NCBI RefSeq assembly: GCF_006381105.1
Contig: NZ_VDET01000002.1
Span: forward strand, 775,546-839,545
Direction of reading: 5' to 3'
Source: Flavicella sediminum
GTDB lineage: Bacteria; Bacteroidota; Bacteroidia; Flavobacteriales; Flavobacteriaceae
DNA length: 64,000 nucleotides
The notes under the pieces are model-generated. The model worked only from the letters and a program-made list of their open reading frames with translations. It was not told the DNA's origin and ran no database searches. The first letter of the stretch is position 1. Each line of letters opens with the position of its first letter. Positions 1 to 10,036 of this stretch are shown here, one piece after another. The position numbers and the translations under genes are program-made.

Positions 1-189
1 CACATCACTTTCTGTTTTACGTAAAAGGAAATTTATAAGATTTTCATGACTCGTAAATACTCTAAAGGAATATCCTTCATAATTATAAATATAAAAAACA
101 GTACTTGTCGTTTTATCCGAAACTTCAATTATATCAATAGTTCTTGAAGCTCTTAAATATTCTGTATTTATGGTTTTAATTCTATTCAT
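1..189 (-). CDS. Hypothetical protein, 3' end outside window
   Basis: An open frame of 63 codons starts with ATG at 189 and runs off the window edge. It begins MNRIKTINTEYLRASRTI and holds a Tyr-rich stretch (VFYIYNYEGYSFRVF). Its ATG overlaps the TGA stop of the helicase gene upstream (ATGA), so translation is probably coupled and it should be the third cistron of the NUDIX-helicase operon. I recognise no domain. The tight overlap is the main reason to accept it as real. It could be an accessory subunit or simply an unrelated small gene. Confidence 0.55.
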   Translation of the reverse strand, partial: MNRIKTINTEYLRASRTIDIIEVSDKTTSTVFYIYNYEGYSFRVFTSHENLINFLLRKTESDV

Positions 190-3100
190 TTTAAAACTTC
201 TACAAATTCTCCAACTACATTCATTTCCTTAGCATTATCCTCATTGATAACAATATCTTTATAAGTCGGTTCGAAAGAATTAGGCTTCAATAAAATTTCC
301 AAATGTTCCCAACCTTCTTCCGTTACATTTTTCTGACTAGCAAAAGTTTTCACCGTAAAAGCAGAATTGAAATCTGGGTCTTGTATATCATGGTTTTCTA
401 TCAAAAAAATTTTACCCGAACGTGAACCCCCAGAATATTTCTTAAAAACACAAATAGAACCATTTGGAATTCTTTTATTCATTGATTCTCCAATAACTTT
501 ACAAGCGAAATAATCTGAATTCAAAGAATATTTTTCAGGAGCTTCAATTTGTGTATACGTTTTTTCAGATTGTAAATCAGAGAAATTCCCAGCAGCAGCA
601 TAAAAATCATACAACGGAATTGTAAACATTTTCTTTGGTTTAATCTCTTCTTTTACCTCGTCGACTTCAACATTATTTGATATAATATATTTATACAAAT
701 CCTCTGTAACAGGTTGTTCTAATTGAAATTTAAAATGTACAATTGGAGTTTTTCTATCAGGCATCACCGCTTGTTCTACAGAATTCGGAATTATAGAACA
801 ATCTCCCATAAAATAAAAATCAGTTCCTTCTCCGTCTCTTTTCTTTACAAAAAGTAATATTCGCTTAGAATCAACTACCTTTTTAATATCCTTACTATCA
901 ATCTTTCTACTCGATTTTGACTCCCATGCAAAAACAGATGGATTTACAAAATAGTCATTATATTTTATTGATGCTTCTATGTCATCCGATTTTTTATAAG
1001 TAACAAAACATGGTGTTTTTTCATCAACCGTCATGTATCCGTTTAAAACACTACTTAAATCTTTCTCCCAGTTCAACAAACGACAAACATCTTTCCGACC
1101 ATATTTATTATATAACACTAAACCGTTCTTAAAATAATTTTCCTTAAAGTTTTTATTGAAGGAAATAATAGAATAATTTGCAGAATCTAATAAGTATTTT
1201 CTAAAATCATTTTGAGTTAAATGTTCTATAAAATCATTGTGAAATTTGAATATATCGTCCTCTAATACAAGAATATTTTTTTCCTTTCTAACAAATTCAA
1301 AATTTAAATTCCATAGGCAAGATTTTATGGTTTCGTCAGAAGGATAATAACCGTATTTATTATGTATTGCTTCTCCAAATTCTTTAAGACTAAGTTTTCC
1401 TTTTTCCAAAAGCACCTTTAGAATATAACTTTCCTCGATTCTTTTAGCATTATTAATCTCACGAGAGAACAACTCTAATAATTCGATCAATTCTTTATTC
1501 AAACTAGGTTCAAAATCTTTATCGGCTTTAACAACAAAATTATAATACGATTTGGAATATTGTACAAATAGAAAAGGGTCTCTAGTTTCGTTATTTACAA
1601 AGTCCACCATCATAGGTGTACAACCCAATCTGTATTTCAACAAGCTATAATCTTTTTTCAAGTCTGATAGAATTTTCATATTCGCAGAATCAATCGACTT
1701 GAATATTTTATCCTTGGAAATTTCATCAAAGTTAATTGTTGAAGAACCAGGAAGCATTTTACTACCTTCTGATATTAATTTTCTTAAAGTGTCTTTATTG
1801 AAAGATGTATCTCCATACAACGCAACAGGTATCAAGTAATTATTCTTGTGATTCCCAATAAAATCAACAATTGTTAAATACTCTTTTCCATTCGCTTTTC
1901 TTAAACCTCTTCCTAGTTGTTGCACAAATACAATTGCCGAATCTGTTGGCCTAATCATTAATATCTGATTAATTTTCGGAATATCTATTCCTTCATTAAA
2001 AATATCAACAGTAAAAATGTAATCTATTTTTTCATTTATATTATCCGACTCTAATAATCGAATAGCTTCAGCTCTTTCCGCTTCAGAATTACTACCCGAC
2101 AAAGCAATAGTTTTAAAACCATTTAAATTGAATTTCTCAGACATCAACTTAGCTTCCGAATTTCTAGAACAAAAGATTAAACCTCTTATTATTCCATTGT
2201 CACTTCCATACAATTGTGCTTTTTCTATAATTTTTGAAACTCTTTCATCAGTTGTTAAAAGATTAAAATCCTTTGTATTTTCTAGCTCCTCATTATTCAC
2301 TATTAAATCTGTAATTCCAAAATAATGAAATTGGCTAAGCATACCTTCTTCCATTGCTCGATTCAATCGAATTTCATATGCAATATTATGGTCAAACAAA
2401 CTAAAAATATCATTTCCATCTGTACGCTCAGGAGTTGCTGTCATCCCTAATAAAAATTTCGGATTGAAATATTCTATTAATCGCAAATAAGAATCTGCAC
2501 CTGACCTGTGTGATTCATCAATAATAATATAATCAAAATGGTCTTTGTCAAATTTTGATAAATGGTCTTCTCTAGAAATTGTTTGCACCGTAGAAAAAAC
2601 AAAATCTGCATCTAAATCTCTATTATTTCCAGAGTATAGACCCAAAGTTTTTTTCTTCTTAAATATTTTTCGAAAAGTTTCCAAGGCCTTTTGAGCAATA
2701 TTCAATCGATGAACAACGAATAATAATTTTTTAGGTTGAAATGCTTCTACATCAAAAGCGGCTAAATATGTTTTCCCTGTTCCTGTAGCTGAAATTATTA
2801 GTGCTTTAGTTTTTTCATCAATTCGTAAATTCTCTAAATTTTGAAGAGCTTCCGTCTGCATAGCATTTGGAACAATTTCCTCTGCTACTGTTTCTTCTGG
2901 AATTTCAATCTTTGATAACTTAGCTTTATTATAAATTATTTCATATTCTCTAATAAAATCGCTTGTTACTATTGTGGCCTCTTTAAAATCGATTTCAAAT
3001 TCTGAAAGAACATTATTTACAATTTCACTGGAGTGTAAACCTGAAACTTTTAAATTCCATTCCTTATTTGTTGTTAAAGCGGAAGATGTCAAATTACTAC

Positions 3101-3518
3101 TTCCAACAATAATATTATAATATTCCTTTGTTTTAAAAATATAACCTTTTGAATGCGCGTTATTCTTTGTTGATATTTTCAATTCAACATTGGTAAACTT
3201 CAACAGTTTTTTAAGAGCTTCTGGTTGTGTAAAATTTAAATATTGAGATACTAGTATTTTACCTTTGATTCCTTTTTCTTCTAAAACCAATAATTCATTT
3301 AACAACACAGCAATTCCACTTGTTGTTACAAATGCAACAGAAATAATAAACTCGTCACAAAAGCTTAATTCTTGAAGCAGTGTTGAAAGTACCTTTTCTT
3401 TAGGAATTTGTTTGTTTACTAATAATTTAGGCCGATATAAAACTTCCGACTCTGTTTCTTTATCTATAAATCCAGTATCTAGACTTCTTTTAAAGTCATT
3501 CTTAAATGAATCATTCAT
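186..3518 (-). CDS. PLD-nuclease / SF2 helicase / DUF3427 protein with C-terminal LexA-like S24 peptidase domain
   Basis: A 1110-residue multidomain protein. Residues about 30-190 form a phospholipase-D-like nuclease domain with one HxK motif (H122, K124) followed by GSSNLTSSAL at 139-148. Residues about 215-560 form an SF2 helicase: Walker A SATGTGKT (243-250), DESH box (334-337), TAT (360-362) and motif VI QQLGRGLR (533-540). The middle (about 560-945) resembles the DUF3427 region that follows such helicases. The last 147 residues are an S24/LexA-type fold with GESM (Ser1012), FTVKTF (Lys1057) and an upstream AAAG sequence with a predicted self-cleavage bond Ala976-Gly977. The Ala-Gly-to-Ser spacing (36) is close to that of LexA and the Ser-to-Lys spacing (45) slightly longer. 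It overlaps the NUDIX gene by 8 nt and the next ORF by 4 nt. Family knowledge suggests DNA repair or phage defence; S24 self-cleavage would tie activity to DNA damage. Domain calls are firm, the role is inferred. Confidence 0.88.
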   Translation of the reverse strand: MNDSFKNDFKRSLDTGFIDKETESEVLYRPKLLVNKQIPKEKVLSTLLQELSFCDEFIISVAFVTTSGIAVLLNELLVLEEKGIKGKILVSQYLNFTQPEALKKLLKFTNVELKISTKNNAHSKGYIFKTKEYYNIIVGSSNLTSSALTTNKEWNLKVSGLHSSEIVNNVLSEFEIDFKEATIVTSDFIREYEIIYNKAKLSKIEIPEETVAEEIVPNAMQTEALQNLENLRIDEKTKALIISATGTGKTYLAAFDVEAFQPKKLLFVVHRLNIAQKALETFRKIFKKKKTLGLYSGNNRDLDADFVFSTVQTISREDHLSKFDKDHFDYIIIDESHRSGADSYLRLIEYFNPKFLLGMTATPERTDGNDIFSLFDHNIAYEIRLNRAMEEGMLSQFHYFGITDLIVNNEELENTKDFNLLTTDERVSKIIEKAQLYGSDNGIIRGLIFCSRNSEAKLMSEKFNLNGFKTIALSGSNSEAERAEAIRLLESDNINEKIDYIFTVDIFNEGIDIPKINQILMIRPTDSAIVFVQQLGRGLRKANGKEYLTIVDFIGNHKNNYLIPVALYGDTSFNKDTLRKLISEGSKMLPGSSTINFDEISKDKIFKSIDSANMKILSDLKKDYSLLKYRLGCTPMMVDFVNNETRDPFLFVQYSKSYYNFVVKADKDFEPSLNKELIELLELFSREINNAKRIEESYILKVLLEKGKLSLKEFGEAIHNKYGYYPSDETIKSCLWNLNFEFVRKEKNILVLEDDIFKFHNDFIEHLTQNDFRKYLLDSANYSIISFNKNFKENYFKNGLVLYNKYGRKDVCRLLNWEKDLSSVLNGYMTVDEKTPCFVTYKKSDDIEASIKYNDYFVNPSVFAWESKSSRKIDSKDIKKVVDSKRILLFVKKRDGEGTDFYFMGDCSIIPNSVEQAVMPDRKTPIVHFKFQLEQPVTEDLYKYIISNNVEVDEVKEEIKPKKMFTIPLYDFYAAAGNFSDLQSEKTYTQIEAPEKYSLNSDYFACKVIGESMNKRIPNGSICVFKKYSGGSRSGKIFLIENHDIQDPDFNSAFTVKTFASQKNVTEEGWEHLEILLKPNSFEPTYKDIVINEDNAKEMNVVGEFVEVLK

Positions 3519-3906
3519 TATTCATCAGTTTTGAAACAATTGGTAAATCGGCAGCAGCCCAATCTAAACTAGCCAATTTTTCTTTTGGCAACCATTGATG
3601 TGAAATATGTTCATTTAAAGTAATAGCCATTGATTTTGGTTTACAAATAAAACTATGCATTGTTAGTTCAAAATCAGGGTATGTATGAGTAACAGTCAAA
3701 TACAAATCATTGATATTTGGCTCAATATTTAATTCTTCAATAAGTTCTCTTTTAAGTGCTTCTTTTTTAGTTTCTCCACTTTCAATTTTCCCACCAGGAA
3801 ATTCAAATTTTTTCGATATATATTCTAATGGACTTTTATCTCTTTGAGCGCATAATATTAAATCTTCATATATTATTATTGCCGCAACTACTTCAACTTT
3901 CTTCAT
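3511..3906 (-). CDS. NUDIX hydrolase, MutT/8-oxo-dGTPase-like
   Basis: A 131-residue single-domain NUDIX protein, the usual length for MutT-type enzymes. The NUDIX box lies at about residues 38-61 (GGKIESGETKKEA then LKRELIEEL); the usual Gly near its end is Asn (EELNI). Such enzymes hydrolyse nucleoside triphosphates or related pyrophosphates, often oxidised nucleotides. It is the first gene of an operon: the helicase ATG at 3518 lies inside its 3' end (8-nt overlap). A promoter-like TAGATTTG sits 28 nt upstream of its ATG. Being paired with a helicase-nuclease suggests nucleotide-pool or nucleotide-signal hydrolysis linked to DNA damage or defence; the substrate cannot be told from sequence. 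Confidence 0.85.
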   Translation of the reverse strand: MKKVEVVAAIIIYEDLILCAQRDKSPLEYISKKFEFPGGKIESGETKKEALKRELIEELNIEPNINDLYLTVTHTYPDFELTMHSFICKPKSMAITLNEHISHQWLPKEKLASLDWAAADLPIVSKLMNNE

Positions 3907-8185: not shown

Positions 8186-10036
8186 TTATTGTCCATTTAA
8201 ATAGTCCAATCTTCTCAATACCTGAGGCTCTTCTAATACGTTTGCATGCACTTTGTTCTTGTCTAAATGAAAACTGTAGTTCATGGCACAATCTTGCATC
8301 AATACGATAGAATTTAAAATCAACAAAGCTTCAGCACCGTCTCTAGAATCGTACAAAGCTTGCGTCATGCTATTGGCTGGGTTTTCTGTTTTCGACAAAC
8401 CTAAAAACTCAGCGGCTCTTACTTTGTTGATCAATTCAGTATCGTTCTTGGCAATTTCTTTGATTTCACTGGCCAATTCTTTTGCTTCCGTTCCAAAAGC
8501 ACTGGCACTGATCAACGCCCAATAACGCACCCAAGGATCATTTGCTTGCAAGGCTTTTTGAAGTTTCGACTTTGCTTTGTCAAAATCCAACAACATTAAA
8601 TTCGAAGTCTTTAAATAGGTTTTGATGTCCTTTTTATGTTTTTGTCCAAAAGCTACCGGATTTTCAAAGGCATTTTTAATTAAATAAAACTCAGGATAAA
8701 AAGACAAATCGGGCATGCTTACAATACGCTTGTTCAAATTGGCTCTTAGTTCTTTGACTATTTTCTTGTATTCCGCTTTAGCAGCTAAATTATGCAACTC
8801 ATAAGGATCTTTTTCCACATCGTACAATTCTTCGGCTTGTTTTGGCTCGAAAAATTTAGACTGGTCTGCATTTAATTTTCCTTCTTTGTACAACTTGATC
8901 CATTCCTGATAGCCCAACTGCTTGTAGCGGTAGTTGTTCATTAAGCCATCAAAATTAAAAGGCTCGTAGTTTCTGGTGTATTTGTATTTTCCTTTTCTTA
9001 CCGCACGTACCATGTCGTATTTCTCATCCATACGGTTGGTATAACTAAAAGTCTCCGTACGCTTTGCCAAATTCTTAGCAGAAACTCCTTTTCCTAAAAA
9101 CGGCTTTCCATCCATTTCCTTCGGAACCTCAACACCTGCCAAATTTAAAACCGTAGCACCAAAATCGATAAAACTGACAAAAGCATCATTTCTTGTACCT
9201 GCTTTTACGGCAACCAAATCTTTGAATTTAGTAGGAATATGTACCACCAACGGCACATGTACGCCCATTTCATTGATATAACCTTTGCTTCCTGGCAACA
9301 CACCACCATGATCGCCATAATAGAAAATAAAGGTATTTTCATACAAGCCATCTGCTTTCAATTTTGCCACAACAGCTCCTAACTGTCGATCCATTTCTTG
9401 CATCTTATCATGGTAACGTGCATGGGTATAGCGAAACAAATCGGTTTGCGGATGGTTGGGTTGAATGACCATTTTAGAGGCATCCGTTTTTGTCCCTGCT
9501 TTTACATCAGCTTCTGTAAAATGCAAACGACTTTCATGGGTGGTTTCTATATTGTGTACATAGAAAAATGGTTGATTTGGTTTGCGATCTCTCCAAGTAG
9601 ATTTTTTTGAAGACTTGTCCCACACCCCTTCACTGGTACTAATATTATAATCTTCTTTTGCATTGTTTGCTGTATAATAACCTGCTTTGCGCAAATACGC
9701 AGGAAACATATCCGTTCCCTCTGGCATTGGTACTTTTACCATTCTTCTGTGGTAATGTGTTGCCAATCTAGGTCCGTAAGAAGAAGAAATTAAGGTAGAT
9801 CTTGCTGCACTACATACCGGTGTGTTTGAAAAAGCATGGTTAAAAACCACACCACTTTTTGCCAAACTTTCAATATTTGGGGTTTCAGCGCCGGTTGTAT
9901 CATATAATTTTAAATAATGTTTGGAATTGTCTTCTGATACAATCCATACGATATTTGGTCTTTCTTCATTTTGGGCTTTTAAGGAACTCGTTCCTAATTG
10001 AAGCAAAACAACGACAAGCAAAAATTTAAATTTCAT
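8186..10036 (-). CDS. Type I sulfatase, S1 family (N-sulfoglucosamine sulfohydrolase-like)
   Basis: A 616-residue exported sulfatase with signal peptide ending at LKAQ. The metal-binding start is IVWIVSEDNS, the active-site motif CSAARSTL places the formylglycine precursor at Cys75 (C-x-A-x-R form), and FYYGDHGGVLPGSKG is the second metal-binding region. The Ala-type motif and general layout recall the S1_8 heparan N-sulfatase group, but the subfamily is a guess. The last 120 residues look helical (HEAT-like) beyond the sulfatase fold. It would remove sulfate esters in the periplasm. It lies between hairpins on both sides, downstream of the GH29 gene. Confidence 0.85.
   Translation of the reverse strand: MKFKFLLVVVLLQLGTSSLKAQNEERPNIVWIVSEDNSKHYLKLYDTTGAETPNIESLAKSGVVFNHAFSNTPVCSAARSTLISSSYGPRLATHYHRRMVKVPMPEGTDMFPAYLRKAGYYTANNAKEDYNISTSEGVWDKSSKKSTWRDRKPNQPFFYVHNIETTHESRLHFTEADVKAGTKTDASKMVIQPNHPQTDLFRYTHARYHDKMQEMDRQLGAVVAKLKADGLYENTFIFYYGDHGGVLPGSKGYINEMGVHVPLVVHIPTKFKDLVAVKAGTRNDAFVSFIDFGATVLNLAGVEVPKEMDGKPFLGKGVSAKNLAKRTETFSYTNRMDEKYDMVRAVRKGKYKYTRNYEPFNFDGLMNNYRYKQLGYQEWIKLYKEGKLNADQSKFFEPKQAEELYDVEKDPYELHNLAAKAEYKKIVKELRANLNKRIVSMPDLSFYPEFYLIKNAFENPVAFGQKHKKDIKTYLKTSNLMLLDFDKAKSKLQKALQANDPWVRYWALISASAFGTEAKELASEIKEIAKNDTELINKVRAAEFLGLSKTENPANSMTQALYDSRDGAEALLILNSIVLMQDCAMNYSFHLDKNKVHANVLEEPQVLRRLDYLNGQ

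Follow-up and report, generated by a model that had tools for sequence, protein, structure and literature searches.

A SauUSI-family restriction enzyme with a C-terminal S24 autoprotease and a NUDIX hydrolase partner in Flavicella sediminum

To our knowledge, type IV restriction enzymes have no partner methyltransferase, and they are usually described as acting alone. Here we analyse a locus of Flavicella sediminum in which such an enzyme is predicted to carry a built-in S24 autoprotease and to be co-encoded with a NUDIX hydrolase; it lies in a stretch of 64,000 nucleotides (G000:C12:775546-839545, called the window hereafter) from a genome of 4.58 Mb in 77 contigs. A described counterpart of the large protein is SauUSI of Staphylococcus aureus (PDB 7clg), a type IV enzyme that cuts DNA at S-5mC-N-G-S, 5mC being 5-methyl- or 5-hydroxymethylcytosine, and that is built of a PLD dimer (motif H119xK121), an SF2 translocase, a coupler and an SRA-fold recognition domain with a proposed 5mC pocket of Tyr831, Phe841, Ile842, Asp858 and Trp868 (PMC7913695). 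The small protein falls in the same NUDIX subfamily as the Bacteroides fragilis enzyme Q5LBB1 (PDB 3GWY) and NudG (Orf135) of E. coli, which were studied as isolated enzymes, and no genomic partner is named for them in the passages of PMC5158307 consulted here. For the control of restriction, the closest precedent is the alleviation of type I enzymes such as EcoKI, in which a restriction motor-nuclease is shut off against autoimmunity; this shut-off is brought about by ClpXP, which degrades the complexes bound to DNA, and does not, according to a section heading, belong to the SOS functions (PMC11109961), whereas the switch considered here would be in-built.

Neither nudix nor S24 occurs as a word in the main text of PMC7913695, which describes SauUSI, or in the review PMC3874153. 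The sole mention of a NUDIX-SauUSI association that we found in the openly licensed literature is a figure legend, according to which the small "DNA repair" proteins beside SauUSI homologs in Streptococcus are MutT homologs (PMC7641849); no link between hydrolase substrate and enzyme target, and no description of the S24 fusion, was found in that literature. In PADLOC, the corresponding models, PDC-S07 and mREase_IV, are listed separately.

A SauUSI body with an S24 tail

The large protein (1110 aa, positions 186..3518, minus strand) aligns over residues 6-946 with residues 5-952 of SauUSI (7clg, E 6.2e-223, phmmer against the PDB), and the PADLOC model mREase_IV covers its residues 6-945 with 765 bits. 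Its sequence assigns it to the SauUSI family of type IV restriction enzymes, PLD, SF2 ATPase, coupler and SRA-fold domains being joined in one chain, and the helicase-nuclease module that a first-pass annotation of this DNA had taken for possibly undescribed thus belongs to a known family. Two named full-length homologs, both from Tenacibaculum, are 67 and 71% identical to it.

All domains lie on the minus strand. The PLD-family nuclease domain (Pfam PLDc_2, residues 61-175, positions 2994..3338) carries H122xK124 and is followed by an SF2 helicase-like ATPase (residues 215-540, positions 1899..2876; Pfam ResIII at 215-365 and Helicase_C at 445-540), by DUF3427 (residues 684-945, positions 684..1469; 251 bits in Pfam), which in the 7clg alignment spans the coupler and SRA parts of SauUSI, and by the S24 module (residues 973-1110, positions 186..602). 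In 15 aligned homologs, 12 with S24 and three without, H122, K124 and N142 of the PLD domain are invariant, as are the ATGTGKT and DExH residues of the ATPase and the five residues of the 5mC pocket, here Y828, F838, V839, D855 and W865, which the 7clg alignment equates with Y831, F841, I842, D858 and W868 of SauUSI. The gap that the flipped base leaves is filled in SauUSI by Met829, to which Asn826 corresponds here. As the pocket is kept, recognition of modified cytosine by the 1110-aa protein is likely. The likeness to SauUSI therefore extends to domains, domain order and the PLD, ATPase and pocket residues, as well as to a NUDIX gene directly upstream; SauUSI, however, ends after the recognition domain, where about 165 further residues, a linker and the S24 autoprotease, are found here.

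Pfam places the Peptidase_S24 match at residues 973-1105 (27.9 bits, cut-off 23.3), and no PDB chain was found for the module by sequence at E up to 1. LexA-type proteins are recognised by an Ala-Gly (or Cys-Gly) scissile bond together with a Ser/Lys dyad (PMC8565304). In an alignment of 38 S24 modules, 15 from SauUSI proteins and 23 from the GIY-YIG-type proteins described below (two rows are identical), Ala976, Gly977, Ser1012 and Lys1057 are invariant in 38/38, and every module thus has, by sequence, the bond and dyad of an S24 (LexA-type) autoprotease. Fifteen of the 145 alignment columns are invariant, all four catalytic ones among them (hypergeometric p 8e-5); Ala975, the P2 alanine, is kept in 37/38, and the scissile bond lies directly behind a variable linker. 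Between Ser and Lys there is a family-specific stretch, GGSRxGKI, followed by a conserved D and TxK. The first-pass annotation had listed the domains, the gene overlaps of 8 and 4 nt and the four residues, and all are confirmed by open reading frames, Pfam and alignment; the spacings that it gave, 36 from Ala-Gly to Ser and 45 from Ser to Lys, follow from the residue numbers, and its proposal of intact self-cleavage residues is upheld by their conservation in homologs of the same domain order. The module has the Ala-Gly bond, the Ser/Lys dyad and PF00717 in common with LexA, CI and UmuD, and its Ala-Gly-to-Ser spacing is close to that in LexA; it differs from them in its fusion partner, which is a nuclease-motor where they have a DNA-binding domain, and in a Ser-to-Lys stretch that is longer than that of LexA.

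Two other S24 proteins of the host offer a comparison, both read by eye. The first (L195), an S24-like protein that narrowly misses the Pfam cut-off, no longer has the catalytic Ser and Lys, so the S24 fold alone does not force catalytic conservation. The second, a CI-like protein (L193:1357-2130, minus strand) whose gene is divergent from a DnaE-like gene, has intact S24 residues with a Ser-Ala-Gly site and is probably the non-canonical LexA of this genome.

The NUDIX partner and its predicted substrate

The NUDIX hydrolase (131 aa, positions 3511..3906, minus strand; PADLOC PDC-S07, 7.8e-45) is encoded directly upstream, its open reading frame overlapping the start of the 1110-aa frame by 8 nt. 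Among 15 loci of SauUSI proteins with S24 (11 from a search of 395 genomes of the class and four from further searches), NUDIX is the upstream gene in all 15, with gaps of -16 to +1 nt (-8 in ten), and the NUDIX partner proposed in the first-pass annotation is therefore present in every such homolog examined. It is also upstream in the three Bacteroidota loci of the SauUSI group proper that lack S24 (L100, L102 and L103), and it directly precedes SauUSI in records of Hymenobacter, L. plantarum, L. curvatus, L. fermentum and S. aureus (L166 and L169, one gene in two records); overall, nine of ten records of SauUSI without S24 have NUDIX upstream. Since the match of the S. aureus protein of L169 to 7clg (2066 bits) takes in all 953 residues, SauUSI itself has a NUDIX neighbour. 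The latter (L169:2583-2984) matches PDB 5x1x, "Mutator mutT protein", at E 1.5e-83, and a solved structure of the NUDIX partner of SauUSI seems to exist under this generic name. NUDIX accompanies SauUSI with or without S24; the two are not one unit, in contrast to the first-pass view of a single module, and the S24 unit is moreover found on a second, unrelated effector (see below).

The closest solved structure to the window NUDIX is 3GWY (E 1.9e-39, about 50% identity), and by sequence the window protein groups with this characterised enzyme. For the latter, kcat/Km values (M-1 s-1) of 4.8e6 for 5-Me-dCTP, 4.4e6 for 5-MeOH-dCTP, 6.7e6 for 5-Me-CTP and 8.5e4 for 5-OH-dCTP have been reported, that is, it favours 5-substituted (d)CTP and has much lower activity on canonical NTPs; 5-methyl-dCTP and 2-OH-dATP are listed as likely substrates of NudG (PMC5158307). 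As 3GWY is a published 5-methyl-/5-hydroxymethyl-dCTP pyrophosphohydrolase, the window NUDIX should destroy these two nucleotides, the precursors of the bases that the SauUSI body is predicted to attack: the substrate pair of the one enzyme (5-methyl, 5-hydroxymethyl) is the target pair of the other. The earlier suggestion that the NUDIX enzyme acts on nucleotides thus stands as a prediction from its likeness to 3GWY, and can now be narrowed to a specific candidate substrate, 5-methyl-/5-hydroxymethyl-dCTP.

Gene neighbourhoods point in the same direction. A search of 198 genomes with the 3GWY sequence gave matches in 52 genomes, and the 30 best matches were examined with about 1.5 kb on either side (less at contig ends). 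Each match of rank 1-12 is directly followed by a SauUSI-family gene, against two of the 18 ranked 13-30; the first seven, whose identity is 50% or more, are members of the SauUSI group proper, and later matches have at most 42%. Given these 12 of 12, the NUDIX members that are most like the 5-methyl-dCTP hydrolase travel with SauUSI. A search of eight genomes of one genus for the neighbourhood of the 3GWY gene yielded only two loci, both already known.

It has also been reported that 5-methyl-dCTP is readily incorporated into DNA and that it may arise mainly from degraded methylated DNA, and MutT and mycobacterial MutT2 have been named as acting on it as well (PMC10742078). Degraded methylated DNA is just what a SauUSI-type enzyme produces. 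Both the NUDIX partners and the MazG-like partners considered in the next section are related to enzymes named in PMC10742078, a match that is suggestive and not exclusive.

One S24 module on two effectors

When residues 946-1110 were searched in the 395 genomes of the class (E limit 1e-8), 32 matches were obtained, the weakest at 9e-36 and none between 9e-36 and 1e-8. Eleven of them end a SauUSI protein, and 21 end a protein of different make-up, GIY-YIG + SLFN-g3 (DUF2075) helicase + S24, 19 of them 723-750 residues long and the other two with shortened frames (a Pfam scan of three members; others were assigned by similarity). A further search added two loci of this second type, and in the resulting 23 a gene for a MazG-like pyrophosphohydrolase lies directly upstream in 19 (for instance, L036:5134-7673, L037:5207-7740 and L038:5293-7827, coordinates that span both genes) and about 0.6 kb upstream in one; it was not found in two, and one locus begins at a contig edge. 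The nearest solved relatives of one MazG-like partner are 4qgp and dCTP pyrophosphatase 1/RS21-C6 (DCTPP1). The two systems have the C-terminal S24 family and an upstream pyrophosphohydrolase in common, whereas their nuclease, helicase and hydrolase families all differ, and no description of the second two-gene system was found in the openly licensed literature. The S24 unit is a swappable cassette on two unrelated effectors.

As with NUDIX, the hydrolase of the second system is not confined to loci with S24: MazG is also upstream of six of the seven longer SLFN-helicases without S24 (L157, L158, L159, L161, L162 and L163), the exception (L156) having 0.5 kb of upstream DNA. The two systems are linked by a plasmid of Lactiplantibacillus plantarum, which carries genes for NUDIX, SauUSI, MazG and a GIY-YIG/SLFN helicase one after another on the same strand, without S24 (L168:2571-7966). 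In a further locus (L070:1726-8740), NUDIX and SauUSI-S24 are immediately preceded by genes for MazG, a Bro-N protein and an SLFN-g3 helicase.

On mobile elements, the S24 module was found in one of 72,556 plasmid records, from Halomonas, where it occurs in an overlapping frame behind an SLFN-g3 helicase without a GIY-YIG match (L170:3992-6462); this is possibly a third S24 architecture, outside Bacteroidota. Matches occurred in 508 plasmid and 1563 phage records, of which the top six plasmid records and the top record labelled as phage were examined. One scan of viral contigs gave 19 loci, none of them full length.

SauUSI proteins have probably gained the S24 tail twice. The S24 tree unites 14 SauUSI tails in a single clade (100/100) and places the tail of L077 among the GIY-YIG tails, while in the body tree L077 is sister to L103, which lacks S24 (support 93 in a quick tree and 89/90 in a careful one, built without L168 and the long-branched L173). 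A single acquisition within SauUSI was rejected in the approximately unbiased (AU) test, with p 0.0146 on the quick body tree of 23 rows (test written before the tree was seen) and p 0.0218 on the careful tree of 21 rows (test after the tree was seen), and none of 200 bootstrap trees (0%) contains a clade of all S24-bearing bodies. With the S24 tree by itself, however, one origin is not rejected (p 0.356), which tells against two gains. Nevertheless, the placement of L077 and the rejected clade make two gains probable, and two acquisitions by SauUSI bodies would argue for a useful control function.

A third open reading frame overlaps the 1110-aa frame by 4 nt (186-189) and runs past the window edge; whole in the genome, it encodes 82 aa (L003:15487-15735, minus strand). 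As none of the other loci examined contains a relative (E up to 1), it is not counted as part of the system. Positions 4027-63892, including a polygalacturonase-like frame, a sulfatase-like frame at 8186-10036 and two frames of about 1000 aa, presumably represent a polysaccharide-utilisation region, as judged from frame lengths and translations, with no search made. To see whether the loci lie among defence genes, as they would in defence islands, 81 of 98 neighbouring proteins were scanned (those of L073 and L080, loci that nearly duplicate L072 and L079, make up the other 17), and 25/98 matched listed families (among them AbiEi/AbiEii, SoFic, PDC-S05, PDC-S13 and helicase models, one or two members each), figures that carry no background control.

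A proposed mechanism and its alternatives

We propose, with about even confidence, that the locus is an operon of two genes for methylcytosine-dependent restriction, to which a damage switch has been added. In invading DNA, the SRA-fold domain would recognise 5-methyl- or 5-hydroxymethylcytosine, translocation would be driven by the SF2 motor, and the PLD dimer would cut, steps that are established for SauUSI and expected here from homology and conserved residues. As methylated DNA is degraded and recycled, the NUDIX enzyme would most likely keep the target bases out of host DNA and so prevent self-restriction. The S24 module would cut its own Ala976-Gly977 bond through Ser1012 and Lys1057, probably once RecA filaments form, and the cut would separate the complete SauUSI body from the S24 domain; the P2 alanine of 37/38 modules, as opposed to the serine of the host CI-like repressor (by eye), was counted in favour of this self-cleavage. 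Bacteroidetes lack LexA but mount an SOS response via other S24 repressors, with the motifs GGA-N5-TCC or CTAA-N5-TTAG (PMC8565304), and a RecA signal is therefore to be expected in hosts of this kind.

Several results weigh against this proposal. When the 250 bp in front of each of 43 NUDIX/MazG genes were scanned for exact copies of the two SOS motifs, 1 and 0 were found, against 1.16 and 0.43 expected from shuffled controls; the window NUDIX gene has no exact motif within 250 bp upstream, and control of the system by SOS boxes was discarded, as there is no excess over shuffles. In the proposal's favour, a search of the host genome for the C5-methyltransferase family PF00145 gave no match. 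In genomes of the SauUSI group, such methyltransferases are present in 2/8, against 137/288 of the others, a deficit in the expected direction that is not significant (p 0.18), and all carriers of PF11907 give 16/38 against 123/258 (p 0.32); two genomes (G118 and G162) carry both SauUSI and a C5-methyltransferase. Additionally, no NUDIX gene was found beside SauUSI in a Fusobacterium record (L173), and in a distant SauUSI-like group NUDIX is upstream in 10/21 loci, one of which has too little upstream DNA.

The weakest step of the proposed mechanism is the direction of the switch. We slightly favour, at a little under an even chance, an off switch, by which breaks in host DNA would bring restriction to a halt, much as in restriction alleviation. 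We lean this way because the cut body would end in ...Ala-Ala, like the LexA fragment that is degraded by ClpXP, and because shutting off would match the alleviation of type I enzymes. One point tells against this leaning: a P2 alanine is common among LexA proteins and hence supports a degron weakly.

The on direction, which is the possible but less probable alternative, was that of the first-pass annotation: the S24 tail would be a lock, the tethered domain hindering the recognition domain or the nuclease, until a RecA-stimulated cut freed an active SauUSI body for damage- or phage-triggered restriction or suicide. The predicted product (residues 1-976) has the architecture of SauUSI proteins without S24, the cleavage site lies directly behind the variable linker, and the S. 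aureus member, which lacks S24, is active alone (PMC7913695). It can be argued, however, that a lock would create a positive feedback, in which any cut in host DNA becomes runaway shredding. Most known S24 cleavages, moreover, inactivate the remainder of the protein.

It is also conceivable, though we think it rather unlikely, that the NUDIX enzyme is a weapon that destroys 5-hydroxymethyl-dCTP during infection by hydroxymethylcytosine phages and starves phage synthesis while the restriction enzyme cuts the rest. PADLOC lists the NUDIX family as the defence candidate PDC-S07, where we take S to mean a single-gene candidate. For the 3GWY enzyme, 5-MeOH-dCTP is as good a substrate as 5-Me-dCTP (PMC5158307), but this equal activity on 5-methyl-dCTP fits housecleaning just as well.

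More doubtful still is self-cleavage without RecA, as constitutive maturation or through another trigger, as for the LexA-like IrvR. A LexA-like protein outside the RecA rule has been reported (PMC7101444), and the family-specific stretch between Ser and Lys may alter the trigger; yet all the classical requirements are kept in 38/38 modules, and we consider triggers other than RecA improbable. A general MutT that is there by chance can be practically set aside: the NCBIfam MutT/NudG models match, all below their cut-offs, whereas NUDIX is upstream in 15/15 loci with S24 and in SauUSI loci of other phyla, and 3GWY prefers 5-substituted (d)CTP to canonical NTPs (PMC5158307).

With both hydrolase-effector pairs in one gene row on the Lactiplantibacillus plasmid, a broader design may be considered, to which we give somewhat less than even credence. 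Nuclease-helicases that attack modified DNA would be co-encoded with a hydrolase for the precursor of the attacked base (NUDIX with SauUSI, a MazG-DCTPP1-type enzyme with GIY-YIG-SLFN), and one LexA-type cassette, found on both effectors in Bacteroidota, would tie restriction to the state of host DNA. If the proposal is correct, an enzyme shipped with its own modified-dNTP clearer would explain how a nuclease against methylated DNA is tolerated, 5-methyl-dCTP hydrolases would gain a physiological reason to exist, and the base attacked by an effector would become predictable from the neighbouring gene. A portable autoprotease on two unrelated nucleases would, in turn, amount to post-translational damage control of restriction.

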